Below, one piece after another: positions 2,031-57,477 of a DNA stretch of 64,000 nucleotides. The notes beneath the pieces were generated by a model that was not told where the DNA came from, searched no databases, and saw only the letters and a list, made by a program, of their open reading frames with translations. Where the stretch lies: NCBI RefSeq assembly GCF_016861655.1, contig NZ_BOLN01000007.1, positions 124,001-188,000 of the forward strand. The letters are read 5' to 3'. The number at the start of each line of letters is the position of its first letter. Positions within the stretch are counted from its first letter, which is position 1. The stretch comes from Levilactobacillus lanxiensis. Its GTDB lineage: Bacteria > Bacillota > Bacilli > Lactobacillales > Lactobacillaceae. The translations under genes were made by a program, and so were the position numbers.

Positions 2031-2070
2031 CCGTTCCCGGCGGCGGATCCAAGACGCCTCTGGTCGCTCA
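2031..2070 (+). repeat. B-type element remnant: both ends, no interior
   Basis: CGTTCCCGGCGGCGGATCC, the left end of B-type elements, is joined after AAGAC directly to GCCTCTGGTCGCTCAG, the right end. The whole interior with its hairpins is missing. It looks like an internal deletion or excision product. Confidence 0.6.
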
Positions 2071-2227
2071 GACTTGCGAATCATTTTTCATGGTGGTTGT
2101 TCCACCAATCTTTTACTGAAACGTGTCATGTCTTCAGGACAATAGTAGTGGCATGTGACCTAGCCGTTACCGGAATAAAACTGTCGTGGACACGGGGGTG
2201 TGATGGTTTAACCGTGTGTCAGCCGGA

Positions 2228-2391
2228 AGGTCGGTGAAAATAGGCTTAGCCGTGGGAATTTTAGCAGCGGCGTCACCGCTGTTAAATTAGGTGACTTTAA
2301 GACGCGACCCTTGCGGCTTAAAGCAAGGTGGGAGACCGTTCTTTGGCTCCCGCCGTCCGCCCACCGCGTTCCGGCCTATTTTCACCGACCT
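2228..2391 (-). repeat. A-type structured repeat 1
   Basis: Perfect 17-bp terminal inverted repeats AGGTCGGTGAAAATAGG (2228-2244) and CCTATTTTCACCGACCT (2375-2391). Inside is the h3 hairpin GGGAGACC-gttcttt-GGCTCCC with the family's bulged A. Its right end lies about 45 bases before the DUF3397 ribosome binding site. Confidence 0.75.
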
Positions 2392-2450
2392 GGAGGCGCG
2401 AACCACCGCACAAGTTAAAACAAGCAAACAAAAAATAAGGGGGAAGTCGC

Positions 2451-2804
2451 ATGACGTTTTGGACCTCGCCGGCGGGCACGCTGGCCATCCTAGTCATCGG
2501 CTGGCTGTTGATTCGGGGCGTTAAGCGCCTGCTGAAGAAACACTGGCCAGCACAATTGAACACGTGGGACCTGATGGCGCCGATCTTTATCGGCACGTCA
2601 CTCCTTTTGATTCCAGCAGGAGCGGGGCAGATTTTACCGTGGCTGATCATCGGGTGGATGGCCATTGGTATCGTTGTGACACTTTTGCAAGCGATTCACA
2701 ACAAAGAGTTACTTTACTCGACCTTTTTCCGAACATTCTGGCGGCTGACGGACCTGTATTGGGTCGTTGGATTTGCCGCGTGTTTTTTAGTGGTTATTGG
2801 CTAA
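2451..2804 (+). CDS. DUF3397 family integral membrane protein
   Basis: A 117-residue protein with four hydrophobic segments (about 7-23, 42-62, 65-82, 100-117) and a basic loop GVKRLLKKH. It belongs to the DUF3397 family, commonly the gene just upstream of mraZ in lactobacilli. ATG 2451 follows AAGGGGGA (2437-2444). A terminator lies between it and mraZ, so it is a separate transcript head rather than an mraZ operon member. Position suggests a link with envelope biogenesis, but no activity is established. Confidence 0.8.
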   Translation: MTFWTSPAGTLAILVIGWLLIRGVKRLLKKHWPAQLNTWDLMAPIFIGTSLLLIPAGAGQILPWLIIGWMAIGIVVTLLQAIHNKELLYSTFFRTFWRLTDLYWVVGFAACFLVVIG

Positions 2805-2870
2805 ATTAATGCATAAATATTAATTTTTTTGGTTATCGACTCATTTTTAGTAAGCGTTGTAAAACGCGCT

Positions 2871-2907
2871 AGGCCACGGTGAACACTTGTTCGCTGTGGC
2901 CTTTTTA
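2871..2907 (+). terminator. Terminator between DUF3397 and mraZ
   Basis: AGGCCACGGTGAACA pairs with TGTTCGCTGTGGCCT (two small mismatches), followed by TTTTT. Confidence 0.8.
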
Positions 2908-2913
2908 AGTTTT

Positions 2914-2974
2914 GTGGGGAAATTTATAAAAATTCGGAAACGTTGTGGTAGAAAGTGGGGGGGTGTGGTAAACT
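2914..2974 (+). promoter_or_regulatory. mraZ promoter with candidate MraZ boxes
   Basis: Repeated TGTGG/GTGGG motifs occur at 2914, 2945, 2955 and 2964, and the last overlaps an extended -10, TGG-TAAACT (2969-2974). MraZ proteins are known to bind direct repeats with a TGGG or GTG core in front of their own gene, so these are likely autoregulatory sites. The exact boxes are inferred. The same TGTGGTAAACT sequence recurs at the ftsA promoter. Confidence 0.5.
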
Positions 2975-3005
2975 TGGTGATAGTTACAAATGGGAGTGAT
3001 TGGCT

Positions 3006-3437
3006 ATGTTTATGGGGGAGTTTGAACATTCTATCGACACCAAAGGCCGGCTGATCATTCCCGCCAAGTTTCGGGAACAATTGGGCGACCAATTTGTTGT
3101 CACTCGGGGCATGGATGGCTGTTTATTCGGTTATCCCATGCCAGAGTGGGGAGCACTGCAAGAGAAATTGAAAGCCTTGCCAGTCAATCGCAAGGATGCC
3201 CGGGCCTTTGTCCGGTTTTTCTACTCAGCAGCAACGGAATGCGAGCTCGATAAACAGGGCCGCATCAACCTCCCCAAATCACTCCGCGACCACGCAGCGT
3301 TAACCAAACAGTGTGTGATTGTCGGGGTTGCAAATCGCTTTGAAATTTGGAGTGCCGACCGGTGGCAGGACTTTTCCACCACGGCAGAAGAAGACTTCGA
3401 CGATATTGCTGAAAATCTCATTGATTTTGGCATGTAA
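3006..3437 (+). CDS. mraZ: Transcriptional regulator MraZ
   Basis: 143 residues, the usual length. There are two AbrB-like half-domains, each with the DxxGR-type signature: [15 protein letters not shown] (about 11-25) and [15 protein letters not shown] (about 78-92). ATG 3006 is preceded by GGGAGTGA (2992-2998), 7 bases away; an in-frame TTG at 3000 is too close. MraZ assembles into a ring that binds repeats upstream of mraZ and represses the division and cell-wall cluster. It opens the transcript rsmH-ftsL-pbp-mraY. Confidence 0.97.
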
Positions 3438-3459
3438 CGTTTAAGAAAGGAGAGTGTTT

Positions 3460-4404: not shown

Positions 4405-4446
4405 TCTTACCAAATCTATTAATTCGACATAGGAAGATGATTATTT

Positions 4447-7007: not shown

Positions 7008-7032
7008 AAGAGAATGAGGATTGAGTCGAACA

Positions 7033-8004
7033 ATGATGAATGTGATTTTACCCCTGTTGGGTGGATTTGTTATAACGGCGGCGTTTATGCCGTCATTGAT
7101 CCGGTACTTCCGGGCGCGGCACGAAGGCCAAATGATTCGTGAAGAGGGTCCCACGTGGCACGAAAAGAAATCAGGAACTCCAACCATGGGGGGCCTGTTA
7201 TTCATTGTTGCCATTGCGGTGATGACACTCGCGACGAGCTGGATCGTTGGCCCACACCATGTGTTGTCGACCACGTGGATCTTACTGTTCATCCTGGTCT
7301 TATACGGCGCCTTAGGGGCGTGGGATGACAGCATCAAGCTGTTTCACCGGCAAAATGAAGGCTTAAAGGCCTGGCAAAAACTACTGGGACAAATCGTTGG
7401 GGCACTGATCTTATTCTGGGTCTACACCCACGAACAACTCCCAATGGCTCTGCACGTTCCGGGGATGGGCAACTGGCACATGAGTGGCTGGTATGCCGTC
7501 TTCGTCATTATTTGGTTAGTTGGCTTCAGTAATGCGGTTAACCTGTCCGATGGCCTCGATGGCCTGGTGAGTGGGTTGGCCAGCATTGCCTTTGCGGCTT
7601 ACGGAATCGTTGCCTGGGACCAGCACCAACTCAACATCGCTATTTTCTGTTTTGCCGTAGTCGGCAGTCTTCTCGGTTTTCTCATCTTTAATCACAAACC
7701 AGCCAAAATCTTCATGGGTGACACTGGGTCATTGGCCTTAGGTGGTGCCTTAGCAGCCGTGTCAATTCTGTTGCATCATGAATTGTCCTTGCTGTGGATT
7801 GGCCTGGTCTTTGTGATTGAGACGGCGAGTGTTATTTTGCAAGTTGCCTCATTTAAGCTAACGGGTAAGCGAATTTTCCTGATGAGTCCGATTCACCATC
7901 ACTTCGAAATGAAGGGGTGGAGTGAATGGAAGATTGATTTGACTTTCTGGGGAATTGGGTTGATTACCGCGGTTACTGGCTTGTGGGTCATCTTACCAAG
8001 GTAG
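7033..8004 (+). CDS. mraY: Phospho-N-acetylmuramoyl-pentapeptide transferase
   Basis: 323 residues with about ten transmembrane helices. Transfers phospho-MurNAc-pentapeptide to undecaprenyl phosphate to make lipid I. Family motifs are [17 protein letters not shown] (catalytic Asp pair), [24 protein letters not shown] and SPIHHHFE. The start is uncertain. ATG 7033 lies 12 bases after GAGGA (7016-7020). An in-frame TTG at 7021 abuts that site and is unlikely, and ATG 7036 is also possible. A strong terminator follows, unusual here because murD normally continues the operon. Confidence 0.96.
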
Positions 8005-8019
8005 AGCTGCGACTGTGGT

Positions 8020-8056
8020 GGGGCTAACCCGCGCGCCGCAGGTTAGCCCCTTTTTT
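8020..8056 (+). terminator. Strong terminator after mraY
   Basis: Perfect 10-bp stem GGGGCTAACC / GGTTAGCCCC and six T. The T-tract is also the start of the left arm of the first B-type repeat. Confidence 0.9.
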
Positions 8057-8288
8057 AGGTTCTCTGGGCGGGCTTGTTACCGCTGCGCTGGCCAGGTGCT
8101 CTCACCCTATGGGGACCGGGCCAAGCCGAAAGGCGGTCTTGGCCCTCGCTTTGAGCCATCGAAAACCACAATGTCTCAAAGTCGTCCCAGTCTGTAAGGT
8201 CGGCAGAAAACGCCGACCAACAGCCTCGACACAGGGTTTCGCACCTGTCCAGCTCCGCTGAAATAGCGGCGGCCAGAGAACCTAAAAA
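8052..8288 (+). repeat. B-type structured repeat, tandem copy 1
   Basis: Outer arms TTTTTAGGTTCTCTGG (8052-8067) and CCAGAGAACCTAAAAA (8273-8288) are perfectly complementary. They continue inward as a looser stem ending CAGGTGC / GCACCTG. The interior has h3, GGGCCAAGCC-gaaaggc-GGTCTTGGCCC. It also has h2, CTTTGAG ... CTCAAAG, and h1, GGTCGGC-agaaaac-GCCGACC. Confidence 0.8.
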
Positions 8289-8355
8289 GAGACTGCCTGC
8301 TTGTTTGGTGTTGTGGGTGTTGGTTGGATTGGCTTAGGGCTGGGATTAGGTTGAC

Positions 8356-8560
8356 TGCGCTGGCCAGGTGCTCTCACCCTATGGGGACCGGGCCAAGCCA
8401 AAGGGCGGTCTTGGCCCTCGCTTTGAGCCATTGAAAATCACAATGTCTCAAAGTCGTCCCAGTCTGTAAGGCCGGCAGAAAACGCCGACCAACAGCCTCG
8501 ACACAGGGTTTCGCACCTGTCCAGCTCCGCTGAAATGGCGGCGGCCAGAGGACCTAAAAA
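8356..8560 (+). repeat. B-type structured repeat, tandem copy 2
   Basis: Nearly identical interior to copy 1 (h1, h2 and h3 all present), but without the left TTTTTAGG arm. The ~70-bp spacers after copies 1, 2 and 3 are also alike (CTGCTTGTTTGG...), so the duplicated unit is about 280 bp. Confidence 0.75.
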
Positions 8561-8630
8561 ATGGGCTGGCTGCTTGTTTGGCGTTGTGGGTGGCTGGTTA
8601 GATTGGTTTAGGGCTGGGATTGAGTTGACT

Positions 8631-8833
8631 GTGCTGGACAGGTGCTCTCACCCTATGGGGACCGGGCCAAGCCGAAGGGCGGTCTTGGCCCTCGCTTTGA
8701 GCCATTGGAAACCACAATGTCTCAAAGTCGTCCCAGTCTGTAAGGCCGGCAAGTATCGCCGACCAACAGCCTCGACACAGGTTTTCGCAACTGTCCAGCT
8801 CCGCTGAAATGGCGGCGGCCAGAGAACCTAAAA
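8631..8833 (+). repeat. B-type structured repeat, tandem copy 3
   Basis: Third tandem copy, close to the first two. The h1 loop differs slightly (AAGTATC). It ends with CCAGAGAACCTAAAA. Confidence 0.75.
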
Positions 8834-9148
8834 CGGACTGTCTGCTTGTTTGGTGTGGTGGGTGTTGGTGAGATTGGCTTAGCCCGTAGAACCAAAAAAA
8901 TTGGACTGGATAATTTTTTTGCCCCTCTTAGGAGCTGGCTGATCATTTTGGTTTAGTCCGTAAAATCTACCACATACAGATTATTCCGGCTGATTATATG
9001 GTTGGACAGTTTGCCATCAGAATTGGTTCGCTGCGCCGTATCATTTGCTGGTTAACCCATTTATAGCGGGTAACCAGTCGGGCGTTCATTAGAGAATTGC
9101 TGGCATTGATTGGGCTGAACGATTAATTTGGTCAACGCACAATCAAGA

Positions 9149-9330
9149 GCCGGAGGAGGACAGGACGGAGACGGCTGTGTCGAGGGTGTTAGGCGGCGTT
9201 TCTTGCCGGCTTACAGCCTGGGACAACCTTTGAGACGTGGGTGTTTCACGGCTCAAAGTTGAGGTGGGAGCCCGTTTCTCAGGCGGAAACCGGCCCCACA
9301 GCAGGCGTAGTCCTGGCAGCCGCAGGCGGC
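9149..9330 (-). repeat. B-type structured repeat, inverted copy before murD
   Basis: Opposite orientation to the three tandem copies. Contains GGGACAACCTTTGAGAC, h1 GGCGGC-gtttctt-GCCGGC and an h3 top GAGCC-cgtttctca-GGC. The outer stem AGGAC / GTCCT is short. It ends about 95 bases before the murD start. Confidence 0.7.
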
Positions 9331-9424
9331 AAATTCACCGCAATCCGGTCCGAAACAAATCTGGTTTAACACAATTAAACAAATTTAAAAACATAAGCAT
9401 AAGAATGGAGAGCGAACGGTTATT

Positions 9425-10804
9425 ATGAAACAAATCACGACGTATCAAAATAAAAAAGTGTTGGTCCTGGGACTAGCCAAGAGTGGGGTCAATGCGGCGC
9501 GCCTATTGAAGCGGCTAGGTGCGCAGGTCACCGTCAGTGATGTCAAACCGTTGGCTGAGAATCAGGATGCGCAGGATCTCCAAGCGGATGGGTTTACCGT
9601 GATCACGGGTGAACAAACCGCTGACCTGTTGGATCCGGGTTACGATTACATTGTTAAGAACCCCGGAATCTTCTACGACGTTCCCGTTGTGCAACGGGCG
9701 TTGGCCGAAAAGATTCCCGTAATTGGGGAAATGGAATTGGTTGGCGAAGTTGCCGACGCTGAATTGGTGGCCGTGACCGGGAGCAACGGGAAGACTACGA
9801 CGACCACGATGATTCAAAAGATGTTGGACCGTGACCGGAAGACGGGCAAGGCCGTTTACGCCGGGAACATTGGGATTCCTGCCAGCAAGGTCGTCCAAGA
9901 AGTCACGCCGGACGATACGTTGGTCCTGGAAGTTTCTAGTTTCATGTTAGCCGAAACGACTGAATTTCATCCCCACATCGCCGTGCTGACCAACATCTTC
10001 TCCAACCATTTGGACTACCACAAAACGCGGGCCAATTACGTGGCTGCCAAGATGAAGATCACCGCAAACCAAACGGAGAAGGATTACTTCGTCGTGAACT
10101 TTGACAACACAGAGTGGCGTGACCTGAGCCGCAACACCAAGGCACAAGTTGTGCCGTTCTCCCGGACCAACCAATCCGAGGATGGCGCTTACGAAAAGGA
10201 TGGCGTGCTGTACTTTAAGGAAGAAGCCATCATGCCCGCCAGTGAAATCAAGGTTCCTGGGGACCACAACGTGGAAAATGCGTTGGCGGCCATTGCTGTG
10301 GCCAAAATCAAGGGCGTCAGCACCAGTGCCATTGTGGCCGTGCTGCGGACCTTTGGGGGCGTGCGTCACCGGACCCAGTACGTGTTAGAAGCCGAGGGTC
10401 GTCAATACTACAACGATTCCAAGGCAACCGACATGGAAGCCACTGAGATGGCCTTAAAGGGCTTCAGCGCGCCCGTTGTCTTACTGGCAGGGGGCTTGGA
10501 CCGCGGCTACACCTTTGAAAAGATGCTGCCAGCCTTCAAGGCCCACGTCAAAGCCATCGTCTTGTTTGGCCAAACGGCTGATTTGTTAGCTGAAACGGCT
10601 AAGCAAGCGGGAATTTCCACCATTAAAATGACTGAAAACGTTGAAACGGCGGTTCCCGTGGCGTACGATTTAAGTGAACCCGGCGACATCATCCTCTTGT
10701 CGCCCGCCAATGCCAGTTGGGATCAATACCCGAACTTTGAGGTCAGAGGTGACCGGTTTATCAAGGCCGTTGAGCAATTAACGGGCAAACAGGAGGAAAA
10801 ATAA
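9425..10804 (+). CDS. murD: UDP-N-acetylmuramoyl-L-alanine--D-glutamate ligase
   Basis: 459 residues. Adds D-glutamate to UDP-MurNAc-L-Ala with ATP. Motifs are [10 protein letters not shown] (N-terminal UDP-binding domain), the P-loop [13 protein letters not shown] (about 117-129), FSNHLDYH and [12 protein letters not shown] 9425 has only a distant GGAGAG (9407-9412), so translation may be modest. The terminator after mraY and 1.4 kb of repeats separate it from the upstream cluster. It therefore needs its own promoter, or read-through; I could not place one confidently in the A/T-rich 60 bases before it. Confidence 0.97.
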
Positions 10805-11898
10805 TGCGATTAATGGTATCGGGTGGCGGTACCGGGGGCCACATTTACCCGGCGCTGGCGCTTATCAAAGCGTTAAAGAAACGCGAACCAGATTCAGAGG
10901 TCATGTACGTGGGTTCTGAACGGGGCTTGGAAAGCACGATTGTGCCGGCCAAGGGCATCCCGTTTCAGGCCACGCGCATCCAAGGTTTCAAGCGTTCGCT
11001 GTCCCTAGAAAATTTCAAAACAATCTACTTATTCTTAAAGAGTGTGCACGCCGCTAAGAAAATGATTCGGCAATTCAAGCCGGACGTGGTGGTCGGCACG
11101 GGGGGCTATGTCTCCGGTGCTGTGGTTTACGCCGCCGCGCGGTTGCACGTGCCCACGATGATTCACGAACAAAACAGTGTCGTGGGGATTACCAACCGGT
11201 TTTTGAGCCGCTACGTGGACCGTATCGCCTACGTGTTTGACGCCGCCCTCGACCAGTTACCCGCTAGCAAAATGGTGAAGACCGGGAATCCCCGGGCCCA
11301 GGAAGCTGCGGAGGTGGTCAGCCACTTTAGTTGGTCCGAGTACAAGTTGCAAGACGACGTGCCGACGCTATTGATCTTCGGGGGTTCCCAAGGGGCCCTC
11401 AAGATCAACGCTGCCACGGTCGCTGCGATTCCAACGTTTAACCAACGCAAGTACCAAGTGGTCTTCGTGACCGGGCAAAAGCGTTACGACGGCGTCATGG
11501 AACAGCTAAAGAACGTTGACGTGGCCGCTAACGTGGTCGTCAAGCCGTACATCAGCAACATGCCAGAGGTCTTGCCCAAGGTCGCCGCAATCGTCGGCCG
11601 AGCCGGCGCAACCAGCCTGGCAGAAATCACGGCTGACGGGATACCGTCAATCCTGATTCCTAGTCCGTACGTCACGGCGAACCACCAAACCAAGAACGCG
11701 CAATCACTGGCGTCCGTGGGAGCAGCGGAGATCATCACCGAAGAAAACTTAACCGGCGAGACCTTAATTAAAAAGGCCGACCAGTTAATGACCGATGATG
11801 GTCTACGCCAAGACATGGCCGCAGCGTCCAAGCAATTAGGCGTCCCAGACGCCGCCGACCGGGTGTTGGACGTTGTTGAAACCCTAAAGCAGGGCTAA
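10804..11898 (+). CDS. murG: Lipid II synthase, GlcNAc transferase MurG
   Basis: 364 residues. Transfers GlcNAc from UDP-GlcNAc to lipid I at the inner face of the membrane. Glycine loops [15 protein letters not shown] (about 6-20) and [10 protein letters not shown] (about 197-206), plus [11 protein letters not shown] and [12 protein letters not shown], are diagnostic. TAATG overlap with murD and a strong CAGGAGGAAAA site indicate coupling. Confidence 0.97.
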
Positions 11899-11908
11899 AC
11901 AGCGTGAA

Positions 11909-12143
11909 ACTAGAAAATGAGTGGTCGCATGTCGTTCCTGGCGGTGGGCGCAAGCAGGCCCGCTATGGGGAACGGCGCCAGCCAAAGGGCGGTCTGCCGC
12001 CTCGACTTGAGGCCTGAAAAAACGTCAGTCTTCAAGCACGTCCCGTGTTCTAAACTGGGAAAAGCACTCAGCCAAGAACACCGACACAGCGGGCCAGCTT
12101 GGCCCACCTCTGGTCACTAAGACGGACGACAATATTTTCTAGT
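11909..12143 (+). repeat. B-type structured repeat after murG
   Basis: Outer arms ACTAGAAAAT (11909-11918) and ATTTTCTAGT (12134-12143) are perfect. Inside them GGTGGGC and GGCCCGCT pair with AGCGGGCC and GCCCACC. The h3 top reads AGCC-aaagggc-GGTCT. It starts 11 bases after the murG stop. Confidence 0.78.
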
Positions 12144-12308
12144 AATAGCGTGTTAGCCTGAAATAAGTCTTCAGGCTGTCTGCATCGGTGTTCGACTGTC
12201 GTCAGTCTGATGACTGTTAGGAAAATAACTAGAAGGACTAACGACACAACGGGCTAGTCCAGCACGACATGGACTAAGCAACTGCGGGTTAACCTCGTGT
12301 CAGCTGCA

Positions 12309-12556
12309 GGGATGGTGCGTGAAAACTGAGTGGCAAGTCTGAGTGACCAGAGGCGGATCAAGACACACAGCTGTGTCGATGGTCTTAGCTGAGTGATTTT
12401 CTCAGCTTAGAGCATGGGACGACCTTTGAGACCGGTTTTCAGGCTCAAAGTCGAGGTGGAAGCCCGCTTCTTAGGCTGGAACCGGCCCCACAGCAGGGGG
12501 TCTTGAATCCGCCGCCGGGAACGGCAGTCACTTGCCGGCTCAGTTTTCACCATCCC
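12309..12556 (-). repeat. B-type core inside A-type arms, before divIB
   Basis: Outer arms GGGATGGTG and TGAAAACTGAG pair with CTCAGTTTTCACCATCCC; the left arm carries an extra CG. Inside is a standard B core, starting GTGACCAGAGG. Its closing stem is GGATCAAGAC / GTCTTGAATCC, and h2 CTTTGAGACC / GGCTCAAAG follows. This copy shows that A and B share one architecture. Confidence 0.8.
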
Positions 12557-12612
12557 GGAGGCGATGACAAAAACAAGTTTAACCCACAAGTAAGGACGGG
12601 AGGTGGACGGCC

Positions 12613-13470
12613 GTGAAGTTTCGGCTGAACCGCAACGAGTCAAAACAACAGCGGGCCATGACGCCATGGGAAGAGTACCAAGCCCAGGCGGAGGCCAAGC
12701 GCAAGCAAGCCAACACCCCCAAGTGGGTGCACAAGGCCAAGCGCATCGGGGACAAGTTGCCCCGGCTCAAGCATCAACGCAACCGAAAACTGATTCGGCG
12801 GCTGAGCATTCTACTGACGAGCTTTACCGTGGTGATCCTGGCGATGGTGTATCTGCTCTCGCCACTGAGCCATTTTCAAACGGTGCGGGTCACCGGGGCG
12901 TCAGCACTCTCGGCCAAACAGGTTCAGCAAGCGACCCGGGTGCGTCCGGGCGATTCAATCTTTCAGGTTGTCGGGCACGAACACCGCCTGCAGCAAAAAG
13001 CAGTGGCGCGTAATTCACGACTTAAGGCCGTTGACATTACCTTCCGTCAGCCCAACCGGGTCACGGTTCACGTCACTGAGTTTGCCACGGCGGGCTACGT
13101 CATGAAGCAAAATCGTTACTATGAGGTCTTAGAAAATGGTATTGTTAGTCAACAATCGGTTGATCAACCCAAGAGTGGCACGCCGGTCTACGGCCATTTC
13201 AAAAAGGCCAAGGCACTTCACCAAATGATCTTGCAATATGCCAAGCTCGATAGTGAAATCAAACGCAGCATCAGTGAGATTCAAGCATCACCGACCAAGG
13301 ATAACCCCGACCGTGTTCATTTGTTCATGAATGACGGCAACGAGGTGTATGCTAGCATCCCTAGTTTCGCCAAGAAAATGGCCTATTATCCAGGCATTGC
13401 GGCCAAGCTGAAACAAAAGGGTGTGGTCAATTTGGAAGTCGGGGCGTACTCGTACCCGTTCAAAAAATAA
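12613..13470 (+). CDS. divIB: Cell division protein DivIB (FtsQ)
   Basis: 285 residues; bitopic protein of the DivIB-DivIC-FtsL complex. The basic cytoplasmic region (1-62) contains TPWEEYQAQAEAKRKQA. One transmembrane helix follows (about 65-84, SILLTSFTVVILAMVYLLS), then an extracellular POTRA domain starting at FQTVRVTGASALSAKQV. GTG 12613 is preceded by GGGAGGTGG (12599-12607). Normally adjacent to murG, it is here 714 bases away behind two convergent repeats. Confidence 0.93.
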   Translation: MKFRLNRNESKQQRAMTPWEEYQAQAEAKRKQANTPKWVHKAKRIGDKLPRLKHQRNRKLIRRLSILLTSFTVVILAMVYLLSPLSHFQTVRVTGASALSAKQVQQATRVRPGDSIFQVVGHEHRLQQKAVARNSRLKAVDITFRQPNRVTVHVTEFATAGYVMKQNRYYEVLENGIVSQQSVDQPKSGTPVYGHFKKAKALHQMILQYAKLDSEIKRSISEIQASPTKDNPDRVHLFMNDGNEVYASIPSFAKKMAYYPGIAAKLKQKGVVNLEVGAYSYPFKK

Positions 13471-18790: not shown

Positions 18791-19036
18791 GTTTGCTCTT
18801 TTCTGTTGGTCGTTGGTTTGCGCTCCCGGCGGTGGTCCTTTGCTCCCCACGCTGTGGGGCCCGCTTCCAGCCTGAGGGGCGGTCTTCCAGCTCGCTTTGA
18901 AGCCACGAAAATCACGTGTCTTCAAAGTCGTCCCATGCTCTAACTCGGGTGGGAAACCCCGAGTAAGACCATCGACACAGCGTGGTCCGCAAAACCACCT
19001 CTGGTCGCTCACAACGGCCAACCGAAAGGCAAACAA
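18789..19036 (+). repeat. B-type structured repeat abutting the T-box terminator
   Basis: Left arm TTGTTTGC (18789-18796) pairs with GCAAACAA (19029-19036), continued by GTTGG.CGTTG / CAACGGCCAAC. It begins inside the T-run of the T-box terminator. Interior: closing stem GGTGGT / ACCACC and CACGCTGTG / CACAGCGTG; h1 ACTCGGG / CCCGAGT. Confidence 0.8.
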
Positions 19037-19065
19037 GCACTTGGTTTTGTATGGTGTTGACTGTC

Positions 19066-19252
19066 GCTCCCGGCGGTAATCTTTACTCCCCACGCTGTGG
19101 GGCCCGCTTCCAGCCTGAGAGGCGGTCTTCCAGCTCGCTTTGGAGCCACGAAAAGCACGTGTCTTCAAAGTCGGCCCATGCTCTAACTCGGGTGAGAGAC
19201 CCCGAGTAAGACCATCGACACAGCGTGGTCCGCAAAGTTACCTCTGGTCGCT
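19066..19252 (+). repeat. B-type structured repeat, second copy before ileS
   Basis: Closely related to the preceding copy, but the closing stem is GGTAA-CTTT / AAAG-TTACC instead of GGTGGT / ACCACC. This is a paired change on both sides. h1 and h3 are conserved; clear outer arms were not found. Confidence 0.78.
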
Positions 19253-19378
19253 TAGGTTAGTGGTGTCAGTGTTAATTTGTTTTGCTGGCCAATCACTATT
19301 TTCTGTAGTGAATGCAGCTTCACTGCTTTACTTGACCGGTAATACTGGGTTTACAGTCACAACTCGTCTTAGCCGAGA

Positions 19379-19534
19379 GGGGCGTGAAAATGGACTCAGC
19401 CGGTGGATTTCCTGAGGTTTCCTCAGGAAATGGCGACTTTGAAACTCGGTTCTCAGAGGTTCAAAGCGAGCTTGAAGACCGTTCTATGGCTTCAAGCGTC
19501 CTGCCACCAGCGTTCCGGTCCATTTTCACGCCCC
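19379..19534 (-). repeat. A-type structured repeat 2
   Basis: Perfect 17-bp ends GGGGCGTGAAAATGGAC (19379-19395) and GTCCATTTTCACGCCCC (19518-19534). Interior: a stem TTTCCTGAGG / CCTCAGGAAA, h2 CTTTGAAAC ... GGTTCAAAG, and h3 CTTGAAGACC-gttctat-GGCTTCAAG. Confidence 0.8.
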
Positions 19535-19649
19535 GGCAGGCGGAAGGCAAAGACTAGTCAAAGGTCTGAACGCAGTGAATTCAATGTCATTGGTCAAGCT
19601 GACCGGTAACGCTGGGTTAATCGCAATCGTCCATGTAGCCGATAGTGGA

Positions 19650-19771
19650 GCCGGCATTGGGAGCCTAGCCGTGTCGTTATGCTTGGCGGTTTACCGCTTA
19701 GCATAAGGGTGCTTCTGGAGACCGCTTCTCAGGCTTCAGAACGCCCCATGGCTAGAGCTCCCGGGGCTGGC
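19650..19771 (-). repeat. Divergent structured repeat (C variant)
   Basis: Arms TGGGAGC and TAGCC pair with GGCTA and GCTCCC. Interior hairpins are TTATGCT ... AGCATAA with an inner GCGG-TTTA-CCGC, and an h3-like TTCTGGAGACC-gcttctca-GGCTTCAGAA. The h2 hairpin is missing. Confidence 0.6.
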
Positions 19772-19918
19772 GCAACGGTAGGCGGAAGGCAAAGACCAGT
19801 CGAAGGTTTTAACGCAATGATAATTAACGGTCGGGTTGACCGGTGAGCTGAGGTCGGGGGACGGCTTGAGCTCACCGGTTCACCAACCGAGGAACAAATT
19901 TTAAGGAGGAAATACGGT

Positions 19919-23969: not shown

Positions 23970-24183
23970 GCTTTAACTTGCTTTGCCGCCGACAGCTGGC
24001 AAGCCCGCCACCCTGTGGGGCAACCCCTGAAGCCTGAGAAGCGGTCTTCAGAGGCGCTTTGAACCTCGAAAGTCACGAGTTTCAAAGTCGTCCCGTGCTG
24101 TAAGGCCGGGAAAATCACCCGACCAAACAGCACCGACACAGGGTTCTGGGCTTACCAGCTTTACGGCTAAGACAGGTTAAAGC
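23970..24183 (+). repeat. B-type structured repeat before mtnN
   Basis: Outer arms GCTTTAAC..TTGCC pair with GGC ... GTTAAAGC. The next stem is AGCTGG-AAGCCC / GGGCTT-CCAGCT, quite different from other copies yet fully paired. h1 CGGG-aaaatca-CCCG; h3 top GCC-tgagaa-GCGGTCT. It starts at the MacP-like stop codon. Confidence 0.8.
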
Positions 24184-24353
24184 CACCGGTTTCTGGTGGT
24201 TGGTTTGTAGGAGTGAGTTAAGGTGTGAGTGAGGCTAGGCTAACAGGGATGAGGCTGTGTATTTATATGGAATATACCATCTCACCTTTTAAAATTAATG
24301 GATAGTAGTGACTCGCAATCACTGGTGTCGGGTTAAACCGGTGTGAGCCGTGA

Positions 24354-24510
24354 GGGCAGTGAAAATGGGCTCAGCCGGGGGATTTTCCAAGGGTTTTACT
24401 TGGAAAATGGCGACTTTGAAACGCGTTTTTGGCGGTTCAAAGCGAGTCTGAAGACCGCTTTTTGGCTTCAGGCGTCCTGCCCCCAGCGTTCCGGCCCATT
24501 TTCACTGCCC
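24354..24510 (-). repeat. A-type structured repeat 3
   Basis: Perfect 17-bp ends GGGCAGTGAAAATGGGC (24354-24370) and GCCCATTTTCACTGCCC (24494-24510). Interior: ATTTTCCAAG / CTTGGAAAAT, CTTTGAAAC..GGTTCAAAG and CTGAAGACC..GGCTTCAG. Confidence 0.82.
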
Positions 24511-24583
24511 GGTAAGGCGCCATCACCCGTAGTTTAACCCGTAAAACAATGTAAGACAAAACGAATAGGAGTGGACACACAAT

Positions 24584-26881: not shown

Positions 26882-26911
26882 CGAAAAAAATTAAGTTGGT
26901 GGGAAAGGGTT

Positions 26912-27101
26912 GTTCCCGGCGGCGAATTCAAGATGCCCTGCTGTGGGGCACGACTCCGGCCTGAGAAGCGGTCCTACGTCTCGTCTTGAAGCCTCGCAAA
27001 GCCCACGAGTTTCCAAGGTCGTCCCATGCTCTAGGCTGAGTGAAGGAACCTCAGCCAAGACCATCGACACAGCAGGTCACCTTGATTCGCCTCTGGTCAC
27101 T
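26912..27101 (+). repeat. B-type structured repeat after DUF1831
   Basis: Ends GTTCCCGGCGGCG and CGCCTCTGGTCAC. Closing stem GGCGAATTCAAG ... CCTGCTGTG pairs with CACAGCAGG ... CTTGATTCGCC. h1 GGCTGAG-tgaagga-CCTCAGCC; h3 top GCC-tgagaa-GCGGTC. Confidence 0.8.
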
Positions 27102-27421: not shown

Positions 27422-27648
27422 ACTGAGGGCTACCATGTCAGTAACCAGAGGTAGATCAAGATGAACAGCTGTGTCGATGGTCTAAGCTGAGTGATTTACT
27501 CTCAGCTTAGAGCATGGGGGCGACCTTTGAGACCGCACTGTGGCTCAAAGTCGAGGTGGAAGCCCGTTTCTCAGGCTGGAACCGACCCCACAGCAGGGCA
27601 TCTTGAATCTGCCGTCGGGAACGGGAATAACATACTAGCCACCTCAGT
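27422..27648 (-). repeat. B-type structured repeat before the acetyltransferases
   Basis: Outer arms ACTGAGG-GCTA-ATGT and ACAT-CTAGCC-CCTCAGT pair. Closing stem AGATCAAGATG / CATCTTGAATCT. h1 AGCTGAG / CTCAGCT; h2 CTTTGAGACC / GGCTCAAAG. Confidence 0.78.
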
Positions 27649-33814: not shown

Positions 33815-33843
33815 GGTTTTTACTGGTCGTTGTCAGGGCCTCC

Positions 33844-34009
33844 GGGATGGTGAAAATAGGTCGGAACGCGGTGGGCAGGACGGCCAGAGCCAAAGGGCGG
33901 TCTCTGACCTTGTTTCTGAGCCGAAACCCGCGTCTCAAAAACACCACTTGTCATGAGAACGTTCCGCCCTCACGACAAGTCCCACGGCTGAACCTATTTT
34001 CACCATCCC
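33844..34009 (+). repeat. A-type structured repeat 4
   Basis: Ends GGGATGGTGAAAATAGGT and ACCTATTTTCACCATCCC (33992-34009); apart from the outer partner bases they pair fully. h3 is CCAGAGCC-aaagggc-GGTCTCTG, and a further stem is ACTTGTC / GACAAGT. Confidence 0.8.
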
Positions 34010-34261
34010 TGCGGCGGAGACAGCGATGACTGGCAGCTGATGTGGTGGCGAGGCCGATTCAATGGAGAACTGGTAATGATTTGACTACTGGTAACTGACA
34101 GTCGGAGTTGTGGGGATGTCCTAGGCAACGTAACTTTGATTGAGCGTTATTAGCTAACATAAAGTGGTGAACACGATAGCGGTGGATATAATACCAGCGA
34201 CCTAAGTGAAAGAAACAACCGTAAAATTTAAATCAGTCTGTTCTTGGGCTGCCGGAGCGGA
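34010..34261. other. Spacer between convergent repeats
   Basis: 250 bases without an ORF or recognisable signal. Confidence 0.3.
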
Positions 34262-34429
34262 GGTGAATAGGGACAAGCCCCTGTGTCGGTGGTGTTAGCT
34301 AGGGTTCTTTCCTAGCTTACAGCACGGGACGACCTTGGAGACTCGTGGCCTTCGAGGCTTCAAGGCGAGTCGGAGGACCGCTTCTCAGGCCGCAGGCGGT
34401 CCCCACAGGGGAGCAGTCCCTATTTCACC
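34262..34429 (-). repeat. B-type core with A-like arms, before the phosphatase
   Basis: Arms GGTGAATAGGGAC (34262-34274) and GTCCCTATTTCACC (34416-34429) pair, next to CCCCTGTG / CACAGGGG. h1 AGCTAGG / CCTAGCT; h2 CTTGGAGACTCG ... CGAGGCTTCAAG. Outer arms resemble the A type, the interior the B type. Confidence 0.78.
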
Positions 34430-34484
34430 GCAGCGGAGGCAGACCAAGAACCACAGCAATTTGAATTTTCTAACGGATGTTTCT

Positions 34485-44898: not shown

Positions 44899-45129
44899 AA
44901 ATGTCTTGGCAAAATAGGGTCGTTCCCGGCGGCGAATTCAAAGTTCCCTGCTGTGGGGAACGCTTCCAGCCAAAGGGCGGTCTTCCAGCTCGCCTTGAAA
45001 CCTCGCTGAAATTCGCGAGTTTACAAGGTCGTCCCGTGCTCTAGGCTGAATGAAAAACTTCAGCCAAGACCGCCGACACAGCAGGAAACTTTGATTCGCC
45101 TCTGGTCACTTAGATTTGCCACAGCATTT
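44899..45129 (+). repeat. B-type structured repeat after the binding-protein promoter region
   Basis: Outer arms AAATG-TGGCAAA pair with TTTGCCA-CATTT. Closing stem GGCGAATTCAAAG / CTTTGATTCGCC. h2 CTTGAAACCTCG ... CGAGTTTACAAG; h3 top AGCC-aaagggc-GGTCT. Confidence 0.8.
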
Positions 45130-45484: not shown

Positions 45485-45705
45485 TATTGCGTCAATATCA
45501 GTGACCAGAGGCGAATCAAGGTGACCTGCTGTGTCGGTGTTGTTGGCTGGGGTTCTTTCCCAGCCTAGAACACGGGACGACCTTGGAAACTCGCGAACCT
45601 TAGCGAGGTTTCAAGGCGAGGTGGAAGACTGCTTTTCAGTCTGGAACCGTTCCCCACAGCTGGGCACCTTGAATTCGCCGTCGGGAACGAAGCTGATGTG
45701 CCAAT
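45485..45705 (-). repeat. B-type structured repeat before the amidase
   Basis: Arms ATTGC..ATCAG / CTGAT..GCCAAT. h1 GGCTGGG-gttcttt-CCCAGCC; h2 CTTGGAAACTCGC ... GCGAGGTTTCAAG; h3 AGACTG-cttt-TCAGTCT. In closing stem, GAATCAAGGTG pairs with CACCTTGAATTC. Confidence 0.8.
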
Positions 45706-48905: not shown

Positions 48906-48943
48906 CGGTCACTGGTTAATTTAGTGTCTTACAGCGCCTTACC

Positions 48944-49101
48944 GGGCGGGAAAAATAACCTGGAACGCGGTGGGGAGGACGTCCCGAGCCGAAGGGCGGT
49001 CTCGGGACTTGCTTTGAGCCTCTGAAAAACAAGTCTCAAAGTCACCATTTTCTAAGGAAATCACTTAGAAAATCCCACGGCTGAGGCTATTTTTCCCGCC
49101 C
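48944..49101 (+). repeat. A-type structured repeat 5
   Basis: Arms GGGCGGGAAAAATA (48944-48957) and TATTTTTCCCGCCC (49088-49101). h3 TCCCGAGCC-gaagggc-GGTCTCGGGA; h2 CTTTGAG ... CTCAAAG; ATTTTCTAAG / CTTAGAAAAT. It may double as terminator of the amidase operon. Confidence 0.82.
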
Positions 49102-49156
49102 TCACGGCTGACACGGGACTAACCTGCGACGGTATTATTCGAGCTTTCCGGTTTTA

Positions 49157-49211: not shown

Positions 49212-49390
49212 GTGGGGTCCGGCATGGCTCTTTATGTTTCTGCGGCCTGAGAAGCGGTCCTCCGGCTCGGTTGGAAAGCGGGTTGAGAACCACCCGTTTC
49301 CCAACACGTTCCACGGGGTAAGCTGAGCAAATCACTCAGCTTACCCCGTCGACACAGCCAGCTGCGTGTCTGGCTGACTTCGGCTGGCAG
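49207..49390 (+). repeat. B-type structured repeat between direct repeats
   Basis: h3 top GGCC-tgagaa-GCGGTCC; h1 GGTAAGCTGAG / CTCAGCTTACC, perfectly paired; a CGACACAGC box follows. Arms are less clear than in other copies. Confidence 0.65.
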
Positions 49391-49519: not shown

Positions 49520-49731
49520 GGTGAGAATTGGTGGCAAATGTTAGTGACCAGAGGCGGATCAAGGCGAACAGCTGTGTCGATGTTCTCAGCTTAGAACATG
49601 GGACGATCTTTGTGACCAATTCTCAGGCACAAAGTCGAGGTGGAAGACCGTTTCTCAGGCTGGAACCGGCCCCACAGCAGGGCACCTTGAATCTGCTGTC
49701 GGGAACGGGCACGGCAGACACAATTTTCACC
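49520..49731 (-). repeat. B-type core with A-like arms, before murQ
   Basis: Arms GGTGAGAATTG (49520-49530) and CAATTTTCACC (49721-49731). Closing stem GGATCAAGG / CCTTGAATC. h2 CTTTGTGACC ... GGCACAAAG, changed on both sides relative to CTTTGAGACC / GGCTCAAAG. h1 is shortened. Confidence 0.8.
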
Positions 49732-52368: not shown

Positions 52369-52600
52369 AGTGAAAATGAGAGCACTAGTTTGAGTGACCA
52401 GAGGCAGATCAAGGTGCCCGGCTGTGTCGGTGGTCTTAGCTGAGTGAATTTCTCAGCTTAGACCACGGGACGACCTTGGAAACTCGCGAACCGCAGCGAG
52501 GTTTCAAGGCGAGGCCCCAGACCGCTCCTCAGGCTGGGGCCGTTCCCCATAGCAGGGCACCTTGAATCTGCCGGCGGGAACGGGTGATTTCATTTTCACT
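52369..52600 (-). repeat. B-type core with A-like arms, before rbsR
   Basis: Arms AGTGAAAATGA (52369-52379) and TCATTTTCACT (52590-52600), perfect. Closing stem GGCAGATCAAGGTGCCC / GGGCACCTTGAATCTGCC. h1 TGGTCTTAGCTGAG / CTCAGCTTAGACCA; h3 CCCCAGACC-gctcctca-GGCTGGGG, longest example of the variable stem. Confidence 0.85.
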
Positions 52601-53761: not shown

Positions 53762-53775
53762 GTAAAACGTTTTAC
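53762..53775 (+). promoter_or_regulatory. Operator palindrome of the RbsR type
   Basis: GTAAAACGTTTTAC is a perfect 14-bp palindrome with central CG, the form bound by LacI-family proteins. It lies 35 bases before rbsK. A CcpA cre site would look similar, but usually is less symmetrical. Confidence 0.75.
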
Positions 53776-53810
53776 AATTTTAAACACTGCTTAAGGAGTG
53801 AAGGTAAATT

Positions 53811-54731: not shown

Positions 54732-54751
54732 TTTTTCAGAAAACAGATAAT

Positions 54752-54800
54752 CAAATCGCAGACTTAACCGATAATTTTCGGAAAAGTTTGCGATTTTTTT
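54752..54800 (+). terminator. Terminator after rbsK
   Basis: AAATCGCA-ACTT / AAGT-TGCGATTT and a run of eight T. Confidence 0.85.
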
Positions 54801-54903
54801 TGCGTTTTGGGACAACCGGTTGCAAACTATTTAAATCGGTCTATTTGGTATATCTATTTTTTGACGTTTAGAATCACCGGTATAACAACTTTCTGGCGAG
54901 GGG

Positions 54904-54932
54904 TTGCAATAACCATTTTAAATTGGTATAGT
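54904..54932 (+). promoter_or_regulatory. Promoter of the transketolase gene
   Basis: TTGCAA, 17 bases, TATAGT. It is followed by a 113-base leader with no clear structure. Confidence 0.68.
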
Positions 54933-55045
54933 GATGAAAGTCGATGAGCGATTGGCGATTTTACCGGTAAGATCAACGAATTGGGAACATCAACCAAAAA
55001 CAAGGCCGTGATTGGTCCGGCCGATTTAAGTGAGGTTATTTAAAA

Positions 55046-57067
55046 ATGTTGAATGAAGAAGTCGTTACTAACCAAATGGATTTTGATGAAACGGATACAC
55101 AAGCGGTCACTGCCGTGCGGATGTTAAGCATGGATATGATCTCGCGGGCACGGTCGGGCCATCCCGGTCTACCGTTGGGGGCGTCACCGATGGCCTACGT
55201 GTTATTTTCTCGGCACCTGCGGGTTGACCCCTCATTTCCACAGTGGTTCAACCGTGATCGGTTTGTCCTCTCTGCAGGGCATGGGTCAGCGATGCTTTAC
55301 AGCCTGTTGCACCTTAGCGGGTTTGCACTGGACCGCCACGATTTAATGAATTTCCGACAACTGGGCAGTAAGACCCCGGGCCATCCCGAAGTCGGCGTGA
55401 CCCCTGGGGTGGACGCGACGACCGGGCCATTAGGTCAAGGCATCGGCATGGCGGTTGGGATGGCCATGGCCGAAAGTCATTTACGGGCAACCTACAATCA
55501 ACCGAATTTAAACGTGGTCGACCACTATACTTACGCGTTGTGTGGCGACGGTGACTTGATGGAAGGGGTCGCCGCCGAAGCCGCTAGCTTAGCCGGCCAA
55601 CTCCAACTCAATAAATTAATTGTTTTGTATGATTCAAACGATATTTCACTGGATGGGCCATTAAGTAATGCCTGCCAGGATGACGTGGGCCAACGGTTTG
55701 AAAGCTATGGCTGGAACTATCTGCGGGTTGCCGATGGTGAGGACCTGGAAGCCATTGACCGGGCCATTCGCACGGCCAAAAATAATCAATCTGGGCCAAC
55801 TCTGATTGAGGTCAAGACACAGATTGGGGCCGGGAGCCCCGCCGCAGGAACGAACAAGGTTCATGGGGCACCGCTCAGCGAGGCGGATCTGGCCACGACG
55901 CGGCAGAACTATAATTGGGACTGTGATCCCTTTACAGTGCCAGCCGCCGTGCATGAACGGTTCATGACCACTATCAAGGCTCGCGGCTGGGCGAGCCACC
56001 AAGAATGGTCGAACCTAGTTGCCCGTTATTCCGACGTGGAACCAGAATTGGCCACCCAATTTGCGCAGGGCATCAGTCAGGCGTTACCCGATGACCTGGC
56101 CACGCAACTGCCAACGTATTACAAGAAGGACCAGTTAGCCACCCGGGCTAGCGGTCATGAAGTGCTCCAACGGTTGAGCGCGGCGGTTCCTAACCTGTGG
56201 GGCGGGTCCGCGGACCTGTTTAGCTCCAACAAGACGGCGGTGACCGACAGTGAGCGGTTCAGTGCTGAGAACCCTCGTGGGAAAAACTTGTGGTTTGGGG
56301 TGCGGGAATTTGCTGAAGCCGCAGCGATGAACGGGATTGCCTTACATGGTGGGACCCGAATTTACGGGTCAACGTTCTTCGTGTTCTCCGATTACATGAA
56401 ACCAGCGATTCGGTTGGCTGCTATCCAACACCTGCCAGTGACGTACGTGTTTACCCACGATTCTCTGGCGGTGGGGGAAGATGGCCCGACCCACGAACCC
56501 GTTGAACAATTAGCCGCTTTACGGGCAATCCCCGGGTTAACGGTCTACCGGCCAGCCGATGGCAATGAGACCGCGGCGGCCTGGCTGGCAGCGATGCAGG
56601 CGACGGACCATCCAACGGCCATCGTCTTGTCTCGCCAAGGCTTAGCGACGTTGCCACGGCCGATGGCTGTTAAAGCGGGCGTAAAGCGGGGCGGCTACGT
56701 GGTCGCAGATGCGCACGATGAGGCGGAAGGTATCTTGATGGCTTCCGGTTCAGAAGTGAACCTGGCCTTGGCCGCACAGGCAAAATTAAGCGAGCTCGGC
56801 CACGACGTCCGCGTCGTTTCACTGCCAAGTTTTGAAAAATTCAATGCGCAATCCGCTGAGTACCAAGACCGAATTCTCCCACGGCACTTGCACCGTCGGG
56901 TCGCCGTGGAAATGGCCAGTGGCTTAGGCTGGTGCCAATACACGGGCCTGGATGGCATCATGCTCACCCAGGAACGGTTCGGCGCCAGTGGTCCAGGAAG
57001 CACCGTCACCGAGATGGCGGGCTTCACACCAGAACGCGTGGTGCAAGCTTACTTAGCGCTAAACTAA
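55046..57067 (+). CDS. tkt: Transketolase
   Basis: 673 residues; thiamine-diphosphate enzyme moving two-carbon units between sugar phosphates. [35 protein letters not shown], the ThDP motif [14 protein letters not shown]...[23 protein letters not shown] and [14 protein letters not shown] are all intact. ATG 55046 has GAGG 10 bases upstream. Following rbsK, it links ribose 5-phosphate to the rest of pentose metabolism. In a heterofermenter it would mainly serve nucleotide and aromatic precursors. Confidence 0.95.
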
Positions 57068-57120
57068 CGCGGTCAAATAAGTAACCAATATTCGGGGAAG
57101 CAACACACATCGGAGACAGC

Positions 57121-57146
57121 AAAGCTGGGACACGGGTCCCGGCTTT
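57121..57146 (+). terminator. Probable terminator after transketolase
   Basis: AAAGC-GGGAC / GTCCC-GCTTT, only a short T-rich tail. Confidence 0.55.
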
Positions 57147-57244
57147 GTTGCGTTCTGAAGTAATCAACTGGCTAACAGGCTATAGCAAGCATGTCATTAG
57201 CTATAAGACAATTTAATAACCCTTCGAAAAGAATCACGATTGTT

Positions 57245-57477
57245 GTTGAAAATAAATGGTCGATGTCAGCGGACCAGAGGCGGATCAAGGCGACCGGCTG
57301 TGTCGGTGGTCTTGGCTGGGGTATTTTCCCAGCCTAGCCCACGGGGCAACCTTTGAGACCGCACCCCAGGCTCAAAGGTGAGGTGGAAGCCCGTACTTTG
57401 GCTGGAACCGTTCCCCACAGCAGGGCGCCTTGAATCCGCCGTCGGGGAGCGAAAGATAGGACCAATTTGTTTTCAAC
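57245..57477 (-). repeat. B-type structured repeat before the NlpC/P60 gene
   Basis: Arms GTTGAAAATAAAT-GGTC (57245-57261) and GACCAATTTGTTTTCAAC (57460-57477). Closing stem GGCGGATCAAGGCG / CGCCTTGAATCCGCC, h1 GGCTGGG / CCCAGCC, h2 CTTTGAG / CTCAAAG. Confidence 0.83.

Follow-up and report, generated by a model that had tools for sequence, protein, structure and literature searches.

The window, by which we mean the whole 64-kb stretch of Levilactobacillus lanxiensis DNA that was analysed, carries many copies of a structured element, here termed the core, in the gaps between its genes, including gaps within the peptidoglycan and division gene cluster (dcw) (Table 1). An earlier note on this DNA had put their number at about 25 in 64 kb. 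A covariance model, R1, with a seed of 33 sequences (15 window copies plus 18 from elsewhere in the same genome), recovered 24 of the 25 places listed there when run with filters off (24 copies, E ≤ 1.9e-7), while the 25th, at 2031, turned out to be a remnant. Fifteen of the 24 stand in the R1 seed and thus match by construction; nine lie outside it. Altogether R1 gave 36 window matches; the 12 weaker ones comprise the remnant together with shadows on the opposite strand and single hairpins belonging to those 24 copies. Self-comparison of the window placed repeated segments in most of the gaps on the earlier list.

Table 1. Cores and related features of the window, with the scores or observations on which each assignment is based.
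Feature	Position	Strand	Basis
Core remnant	2032..2065	-	R1, 34 nt, E 2.1e-4; listed place 2031
B-type core	2226..2396	+	R1 E 3.2e-10; R2 155.8 bits, in R2 seed
A-type core, tandem unit 1 of 3 (~272 bp each)	8077..8260	-	R1 124.9 bits; tandem repeat D1
A-type core, tandem unit 2	8349..8532	-	R1 123.8 bits
A-type core, tandem unit 3	8623..8806	-	R1 121.2 bits, outside R1 seed
A-type core before murD	9148..9331	+	R1 149.4 bits
Inserted stretch murG-divIB (minus core, spacer, plus core)	11899..12612		714-bp gap compared with relatives
A-type core after murG	11933..12115	-	R1 162.8 bits
A-type core before divIB	12345..12523	+	R1 210.2 bits
A-type core	18821..19006	-	R1 172.4 bits
A-type core	19065..19249	-	R1 165.1 bits
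B-type core	19377..19539	+	R1 45.6 bits; R2 150.5 bits, in R2 seed
Short core lacking one hairpin on visual inspection	19643..19781	+	R1 58.2 bits; alignment
A-type core	23984..24167	-	R1 127.3 bits
B-type core	24352..24516	+	R1 50.6 bits; R2 157 bits, in R2 seed
A-type core	26911..27098	-	R1 181.8 bits
A-type core	27443..27623	+	R1 185.8 bits
B-type core	33836..34014	-	R1 31.9 bits; R2 148.1 bits, in R2 seed
A-type core	34255..34439	+	R1 171.6 bits
A-type core	44921..45107	-	R1 174.5 bits
A-type core	45503..45689	+	R1 187.1 bits
B-type core	48938..49103	-	R1 53.0 bits; R2 149.6 bits, in R2 seed
Partial core	49233..49356	-	R1 59.8 bits, model positions 28-152
A-type core, hairpin 1 shortened	49546..49707	+	R1 163.1 bits; alignment
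A-type core	52396..52582	+	R1 178.2 bits
A-type core	57272..57450	+	R1 180.2 bits

The cores fall outside the genes predicted by our own script, in agreement with the earlier statement that they encode no protein, and their 3' ends mostly lie near the adjoining gene. Sampling 400 kb of the window's genome yielded 95 copies, or about 1 per 4 kb, which by extrapolation corresponds to ~700 copies per genome. R1 copies are spread evenly across gap types, convergent ones included (26–30% of gaps each); a role confined to leaders therefore fits badly. The murG–divIB gap, 714 bp long here, measures 641 and 740 bp in the two nearest relatives, 111 bp in a third and 30–58 bp in a further 28 loci, of which 26 are named Levilactobacillus and 2 Lactobacillus sp.

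A branched core fold

The core fold is real. The covariance analysis proposed in the earlier note supported it, with changes on both sides at 32 of 48 pairs in the 33 copies, rising to 45 of 48 in 50 copies (nine other genera), and 94.1% of the pair cells were paired in the 33 copies as opposed to 29–42% when the partners were slid. Equally good folding of shuffled copies, which would have spoken against the fold, was not observed: z was below −3 in all 24 window copies (mean −6.8; 60 dinucleotide shuffles each) versus 2 of 24 control pieces. Regarding the plan originally proposed (outer arms, a closing stem and hairpins, resembling a branched RNA), the structured and branched character stands; the description has to be amended in that there are at least two core subtypes (A and B), the arms are variable and the order of copies is strict. 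The outer arms of 73 A-type copies pair better with their own partner than with the arms of other copies (mean −28.9 versus −17.9 kcal/mol), own-partner pairing lying beyond the 5th percentile singly in only 22 of the 73.

Rfam 15 returned no match for the window at the gathering threshold, in keeping with the earlier impression that no named family has this plan; at E up to 5 there was one match far below threshold (801 bases searched), and at E up to 1 none in the loci of six relatives. A tRNA-derived origin was rejected, as ARAGORN detected neither tRNA nor tmRNA genes anywhere in the window.

Mobile units in related genomes

A genome of another genus, G390, has undergone a recent burst that left closely similar units at 15 loci. 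The burst unit is ~540 bp long and has 14-bp terminal inverted repeats, target duplications of 7–9 bp and two cores oriented 5'-to-5'. Both 14-bp ends were located at 13 of the 15 loci (unit lengths 362–544 bp), and 13 of the 15 likewise hold two inverted cores per unit; the target repeat is exact over 7–9 bp in 8 of the 13 units, extends over 8 bp with one mismatch in three more and was not seen in two (L292, L293). Within Levilactobacillus, locus L060 contains a unit of 594 bp (1425–2018) that has both ends, encloses one core on the minus and one on the plus strand, and is flanked on both sides by GAAAGTAA, an exact 8-bp duplication, and the target duplication at L251 has one mismatch. The full-length mobile unit of the relatives thus measures ~520–600 bp, is bounded by terminal inverted repeats of ~14 bp (YTAAAGGTTGAAAG) and ~8-bp target duplications, and encloses two structured cores of ~150–185 nt, inverted 5'-to-5' with their 3' ends outward. 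Because the G390 burst and L060 display both ends and target duplications, the elements are, judged from sequence, non-autonomous mobile elements by descent. This contradicts the hint in the earlier note that mobility was improbable with no transposase in sight.

Features typical of a MITE are distributed accordingly between the window and its relatives. The elements are short, numerous and apparently without a transposase of their own, no window copy having its middle inside a predicted gene; terminal inverted repeats were found in G390 and at L060 but at 0 of 24 window copies, and target-site duplications likewise in the relatives, namely in G390 units and at L060. Within 170 nt, the known terminal repeat was absent from all 95 + 24 copies of the window's genome (the 24 being those of the window) and from the vicinity of 58 and 38 copies of two near relatives; because of this absence, descent of the window copies from exactly the G390-type unit rests on the shared cores. 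Separate ends for B-type copies were considered and rejected: complementary TTAAAC..GTTTAA arms occur, but a target duplication was apparent in none of the 14 cases inspected.

The two cores held 5'-to-5' by the mobile unit explain why minus precedes plus in every mixed gap (25 of 25, counting the window and 400 kb of the same genome). Adjacent copies formed 58 minus-plus, no plus-minus and 27 same-strand pairs, orthologues being counted more than once, and a possible remnant of a lost opposite core was detected in 7 of 53 single-copy gaps.

In the scan of Lactobacillaceae suggested in the earlier note, 103 of 397 genomes and 11 of 40 genera gave matches, Levilactobacillus brevis being among the hosts by name (locus L107), and in a sample of 398 Bacilli genomes R1 matched none except the window's own. 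Carriage by phages or plasmids was rejected, as an A copy, a B copy and the whole unit (blastn for the unit) found no match in either the phage or the plasmid collection; copies from two other genera likewise found none in the plasmid collection. Among viral contigs the end motif had 9 exact matches.

Constraint on resident copies and competing explanations

Sequence divergence was analysed in 48 orthologue comparisons with two relatives, covering 38 distinct copies of one species trio; orthologues of more than 10.5% divergence, which carry most of the double changes and may be converted copies, were dropped. Differences affected 125 of 4501 paired sites (2.8%) and 260 of 3410 unpaired sites within the core (7.6%), compared with 12.0% in the 40-nt flanks, for which the set includes one antisense duplicate more (110097-110275). 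Paired divergence was below unpaired divergence in 34 of the 38 copies. The earlier description of the copies as diverged and old is borne out, and its alternative "ancient and maintained" gains support from paired sites changing least at orthologous loci. Correction of one arm by template switching is disfavoured as a cause of the covariation, given the reduced paired divergence and the 92 single versus 17 double changes among the filtered orthologues, counts that include the antisense shadow at 110097-110275. Inside the G390 burst, 17 of 192 paired and 50 of 351 unpaired sites were variable, a difference that is not significant (p = 0.08); an orthologue search in a second genus yielded 8 matches in two 40-kb pieces.

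The two strands are not equivalent. Read on the plus strand, Watson–Crick pairs changed to G-U in 45 and to A-C in 22 unique events (p = 0.007), and G-U also exceeded A-C by cell counts, which carry less weight because they depend on an alignment fitted to the model; divided by context, the ratio was 27 to 9 in copies facing a gene start, where alone the excess is clear, and 18 to 13 in those facing a stop (p = 0.47). Unpaired purines of the plus strand are kept and pyrimidines are not, in both contexts, with A/G exchanges at 31 of 1422 purine sites versus C/T exchanges at 120 of 1328 pyrimidine sites, and 7–9% for both in the flanks. Promoter scans found no enrichment pointing into the cores, although they do recover promoters ahead of control genes (0.37 versus 0.15 for shuffled sequence). 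An intrinsic terminator lies within 130 nt of 1 of 39 genes whose stop is ≤60 bp from a core 3' end versus 25 of 131 others, a scarcity beside core 3' ends that is suggestive only.

We consider it reasonably probable that the elements are old copies of a MITE-like non-autonomous DNA transposon of part of the Lactobacillaceae, the plus-strand cores of which were retained, presumably as cis-acting RNA. The unit would have been mobilised in trans by a putative transposase; once in place, it would lose its ends and centre to decay but keep the plus-strand fold as cis-acting RNA when transcribed, possibly setting the site at which a transcript is processed, protected or ended beside a gene. A more far-reaching and tentative version sees a domesticated RNA layer, in which a single type of branched RNA domain would stand next to genes in hundreds of copies, each with its plus strand under selection, in sense orientation within leaders and in antisense orientation at the 3' ends of genes, such that the nascent fold would mark transcript boundaries and make insertion tolerable even in essential operons such as dcw. 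A purely selfish MITE, whose fold would serve transposition only (as ssDNA or RNA read by the machinery) and whose resident copies would lack a host role, could account for the terminal repeats, target duplications and burst, for the even spread over gap types, for the many internal deletions and tandem duplications of copies between close relatives and for the lack of significant constraint inside the burst. It predicts even decay of fixed copies, however, which is at odds with the graded divergence of paired sites, unpaired sites and flanks, and the cores remain where terminal repeats are not detectable; we regard it as rather unlikely.

The strand asymmetry, with G-U in excess of A-C overall and plus-strand purines conserved in both contexts, also makes it improbable that selection acts on a DNA-level element whose palindromic cores form cruciforms or protein-binding DNA with a nucleoid, gyrase or replication role, despite the indifference to gene orientation, the good folding of both strands (mean z −6.8 and −5.9) and the indistinguishable G-U and A-C counts in stop-facing copies. 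The conserved, RNA-like structured core with its compact 3' and long 5' side might suggest retroposition of a SINE-like RNA through a reverse transcriptase or, alternatively, mobilisation by an HUH (Y1) transposase, the enzyme class (RAYT) to which REP palindromes are linked. Both ideas strike us as very improbable in view of the terminal inverted repeats with ~8-bp duplications, and dependence on either enzyme was rejected as unrelated to copy presence across 35 genus genomes: reverse transcriptase domains occur in only 10 of them, and Y1, found in 23, is missing from G012, a genome rich in copies, but occurs in G021 and G031, in both of which zero copies were found.

If the folds of the favoured, retained plus-strand cores act in the cell, many genes would be affected at once and the conversion of a mobile element into a host RNA part would become directly testable; if they are inactive, we are dealing with a large MITE lineage, absent from the open-licence literature searched, whose deep covariation is able to mislead RNA-gene searches. 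As selection seems to keep the folds intact, hundreds of genes may be accompanied by RNA-like parts that form a layer not described before.

Relation to known repeat families

Non-autonomous MITEs are a known kind of element; the present family is apparently new to the literature searched, as it was not found in open-licence PMC papers on Lactobacillus repeats, RNA motifs and MITEs. In its available portions, a survey of stem-loop sequences names L. johnsonii alone among lactobacilli (PMC2267715). According to the accessible text on bcr1-bcr18, these are intergenic repeats of the Bacillus cereus group, of which bcr1-3 are MITE-like and often located in UTRs or operon gaps and bcr10 and bcr18 have conserved secondary structures (PMC3446304). 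They resemble our elements as intergenic repeat families with MITE-like or structured members, but belong to another host group and are set apart, by description, from a unit of two inverted cores. The pneumococcal BOX, RUP and SPRITE elements, as far as the consulted sections of their description go, are small interspersed repeats that fold extensively, insert slowly at present, probably affect co-transcribed genes and are over-represented between convergent genes (PMC3049150). Small, interspersed and structured as well, the elements described here differ from them in their even spread and, compared by description, from the modular boxA-boxB-boxC of BOX in having two inverted cores with two to three hairpins each. 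REPs share the many intergenic palindromic copies, but measure 20–40 bp in the excerpt at hand (PMC3733652) versus ~150–185 nt for the cores. Correia and ERIC elements, portrayed in the retrieved part of their source as MITEs with transcripts cleaved by RNase III or RNase E (PMC10969869), live in different hosts and, likened by description, illustrate one way in which a folded element might act within an mRNA.

Structure and distribution of the core

Repeated segments were visible on comparison of the window with itself. The founding alignment comprised 33 copies, of which 15 come from the window and 18 from the rest of its own 3.03-Mb genome. The core structure that we drew on it by hand has a closing stem, a further short stem (GCUGUG/CACAGC) and three hairpins; 32 of its 48 pairs were altered on both sides, and pairing was found in 94.1% of cells versus 29–42% with slid partners. 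Covariance models were made from this alignment (R1, A-type cores) and from 34 copies of a second subtype, B (R2), with 34 of 54 pairs altered on both sides. Since R1 picks up B copies and R2 picks up A copies, the two subtypes are related. At E ≤ 1.9e-7, R1 recovered 24 window copies, including nine that its own seed lacked, and all 24 folded with z < −3 (mean −6.8), compared with 2 of 24 control pieces. In model-fitted alignments, which lean towards the model, pairs altered on both sides numbered 43 of 48 among 124 distinct Levilactobacillus copies (own and other genomes) and 45 of 48 among 50 copies from nine other genera, the latter being 92.9% paired versus 34–39% with slid partners. The core is deeply covarying, and its structure is not due to chance. 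Upon inspection of the alignments by eye, hairpin 1 carries a conserved U-U mismatch, hairpins 2 and 3 an A-G mismatch or a bulged A, and GUG/CAC at the junction is nearly invariant.

The host genome belongs to Levilactobacillus, as the MurG of the window shares 99.7–100% identity with that of L. mulengensis and L. wangkuiensis. R1 matches this genome at at least 150 places; R1 and R2 together gave 95 copies in the first 400 kb of contig 1, which extrapolates to roughly 700 in total. R1 matches occurred in 33 of 35 genomes of the genus and, within Lactobacillaceae, in 103 of 397 genomes, spread over 11 of 40 genera, and a Bacilli class sample of 398 genomes gave none except in the window's own genome; searches over more than 40 genomes ran with stricter filters that weak copies can escape. 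Most relatives carry dozens of copies, though two of the 35 genomes (G021 and G031) matched neither R1 nor R2, with loss or an early branch as candidate accounts. At least 150 B-type copies were found in a genome taken as L. brevis CD0817. On contig C1 of the L. brevis-like genome G003 (region 1–149646), R1 at E 1e-5 was without match in the first 140 kb, and among the R2 matches listed none lies before 149,647.

A mobile unit in relatives and its remains

When a single locus from another genus (g55) served as query, genome G390 gave many equally scoring copies; 15 of these loci were sampled. They have a unit in common, mostly 92–99% alike (84–90% for L294), with boundaries sharp at YTAAAGGTTGAAAG and its inverse. 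Both ends are present in 13 of the 15 loci, at unit lengths of 362–544 bp; eight of these 13 units have exact target duplications (7–9 bp), three further ones an 8-bp duplication with one mismatch, and two (L292 and L293) none. In 13 of the 15 loci, R1 detected a minus core together with a plus core. What moves is thus the core pair, and this accounts for an order rule: minus copies precede plus copies in all 25 gaps holding both orientations, and plus-minus neighbours numbered zero across the five sets counted, with 56 additional gaps carrying a single orientation only. A Levilactobacillus locus, L060, has a comparable arrangement (see table), and L251 a target duplication with one mismatch. 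Relatives therefore harbor a mobile, MITE-like, double-core unit.

Units and other features by position
Feature	Sequence	Position	Details
Unit	L289 (G390)	719–1261	Cores 798–975 and 1002–1183, 26 bp apart (R1)
Unit	L060 (Levilactobacillus)	1425–2018	GAAAGTAA at both sides; minus and plus core inside
Extra plus copy	L060	2029–2191	Adjoins unit
Split dcw cluster	Window	7021–13467	Two long non-coding gaps, 1420 and 714 bp
murG-divIB gap	L105	11092–11836	A-type and B-type plus units in tandem, spacer repeated
Similar stretches	Window	28156–28399; 29002–29245	244 nt each, 70% identical, in two adjacent reading frames
Long stretch	Own contig 1	123874–124318	445 bp versus 72 bp in G012; inverted repeat AAAAAGTAGTAGATA...; no R1 or R2 match

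When up to three mismatches were allowed, 9 of 50 copies from other genera, 5 of 70 from other Levilactobacillus genomes and 1 of 18 from G003 had the end motif on the expected strand, downstream of their core (controls in the same order: wrong strand 1, 1 and 0; upstream 3, 2 and 0). Within 170 nt, it was found in none of 119 copies tested in the own genome and in none of 58 and 38 in near relatives. The window copies are thus old, their ends changed or lost; the window's species has retained the cores, with the known ends undetectable. Among close relatives, differences at copies are mostly internal deletions and tandem duplications, and a junction AGCCG/GTAAGGCG is common to two loci where the B core is missing. 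Both relatives lack a 339-bp stretch that in the own genome is bounded by a direct repeat.

Gene context and rates of change

The middle of an R1 copy fell inside a predicted gene in 0 of 91 cases (own 400 kb), 0 of 18 (G003, 400 kb) and 0 of 24 (window). In the own 400 kb, gaps of the four gene orientations carry copies at similar frequency (33/114, 13/49, 8/31 and 13/44; 26–30% each), and outermost copies lie at a median of 21 bp from a stop (n = 41) and 100 bp from a start (n = 42). Single copies have their 3' side closer to a gene than their 5' side (own 44/48, window 3/3, G003 9/10).

In the dcw cluster of the window, copies break up mraY / murD murG / divIB. Counterparts of the 1420-bp gap (30 other loci) and the 714-bp gap (28) vary or are short. 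The murG-divIB gap of 714 bp measures 641 and 740 bp in the two nearest relatives, 111 bp in L106 and 30–58 bp in 28 more loci (26 named Levilactobacillus), a comparison that omits seven more distant loci; L104 and the window retain just one of the two tandem plus units of L105. In the mraY-murD gap of six loci (L118, L120, L124, L127, L128 and L130), a conserved block of ~80 nt, GAATATCGAAGATTT...GATAAACTAGAGATAGTG, precedes murD, whose promoter region it may be; L118 and L127 have this block between their minus and plus copies. Elsewhere in the window, the two similar stretches in adjacent frames are apparently a tandem gene duplication, the first frame being without a Pfam match at 1e-5.

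To assess rates, copies of the own genome were set against their orthologues in two relatives, of 91.6% and 90.4% identity; with core divergence up to 10.5%, this gave 48 comparisons covering 38 distinct copies. Differing sites amounted to 125/4501 when paired versus 260/3410 in the unpaired core, paired being below unpaired in 34 of 38 copies; 40-nt flanks differed at 12.0% (49 comparisons, including one antisense duplicate). Unpaired A<->G differences were found at 18/888 purine sites in start-facing and 13/534 in stop-facing copies, C<->T differences at 79/779 and 41/549 pyrimidine sites, respectively; in flanks the two classes were similar (both 7–9%). Paired sites and plus-strand purines hence change more slowly. 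Single changes between Watson-Crick and G-U exceeded those to A-C (45 vs 22 unique events, p 0.007; 27 vs 9 in start-facing, 18 vs 13 in stop-facing copies). This excess and the purine conservation implicate the plus strand, either as RNA or in the form of single-stranded DNA. Orthologues of greater divergence, which bear most double changes, were excluded (63 comparisons at a looser cut); they may be converted copies.

Possible role and known kinds

Judged from sequence, the cores probably function as RNA. The RNA core would then act in cis at transcript boundaries, and a transposase would move the unit. Several points weigh against this reading: a promoter signal pointing into the cores was not found, copies are spread evenly over gap types, the strand signal in stop-facing copies is weak, and the rate evidence comes from one species trio. 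The element may be purely selfish, should the rate pattern fail to recur elsewhere; in nine units of the G390 burst, variable sites followed the same trend, not significantly (paired 17/192 vs others 50/351, p 0.08).

The element was not described in the literature searched, which comprised open-licence papers. It fits those MITE features that are open to testing in relatives and, likened by description rather than by sequence, may work in the manner of the structured bacterial repeats bcr, BOX and Correia.
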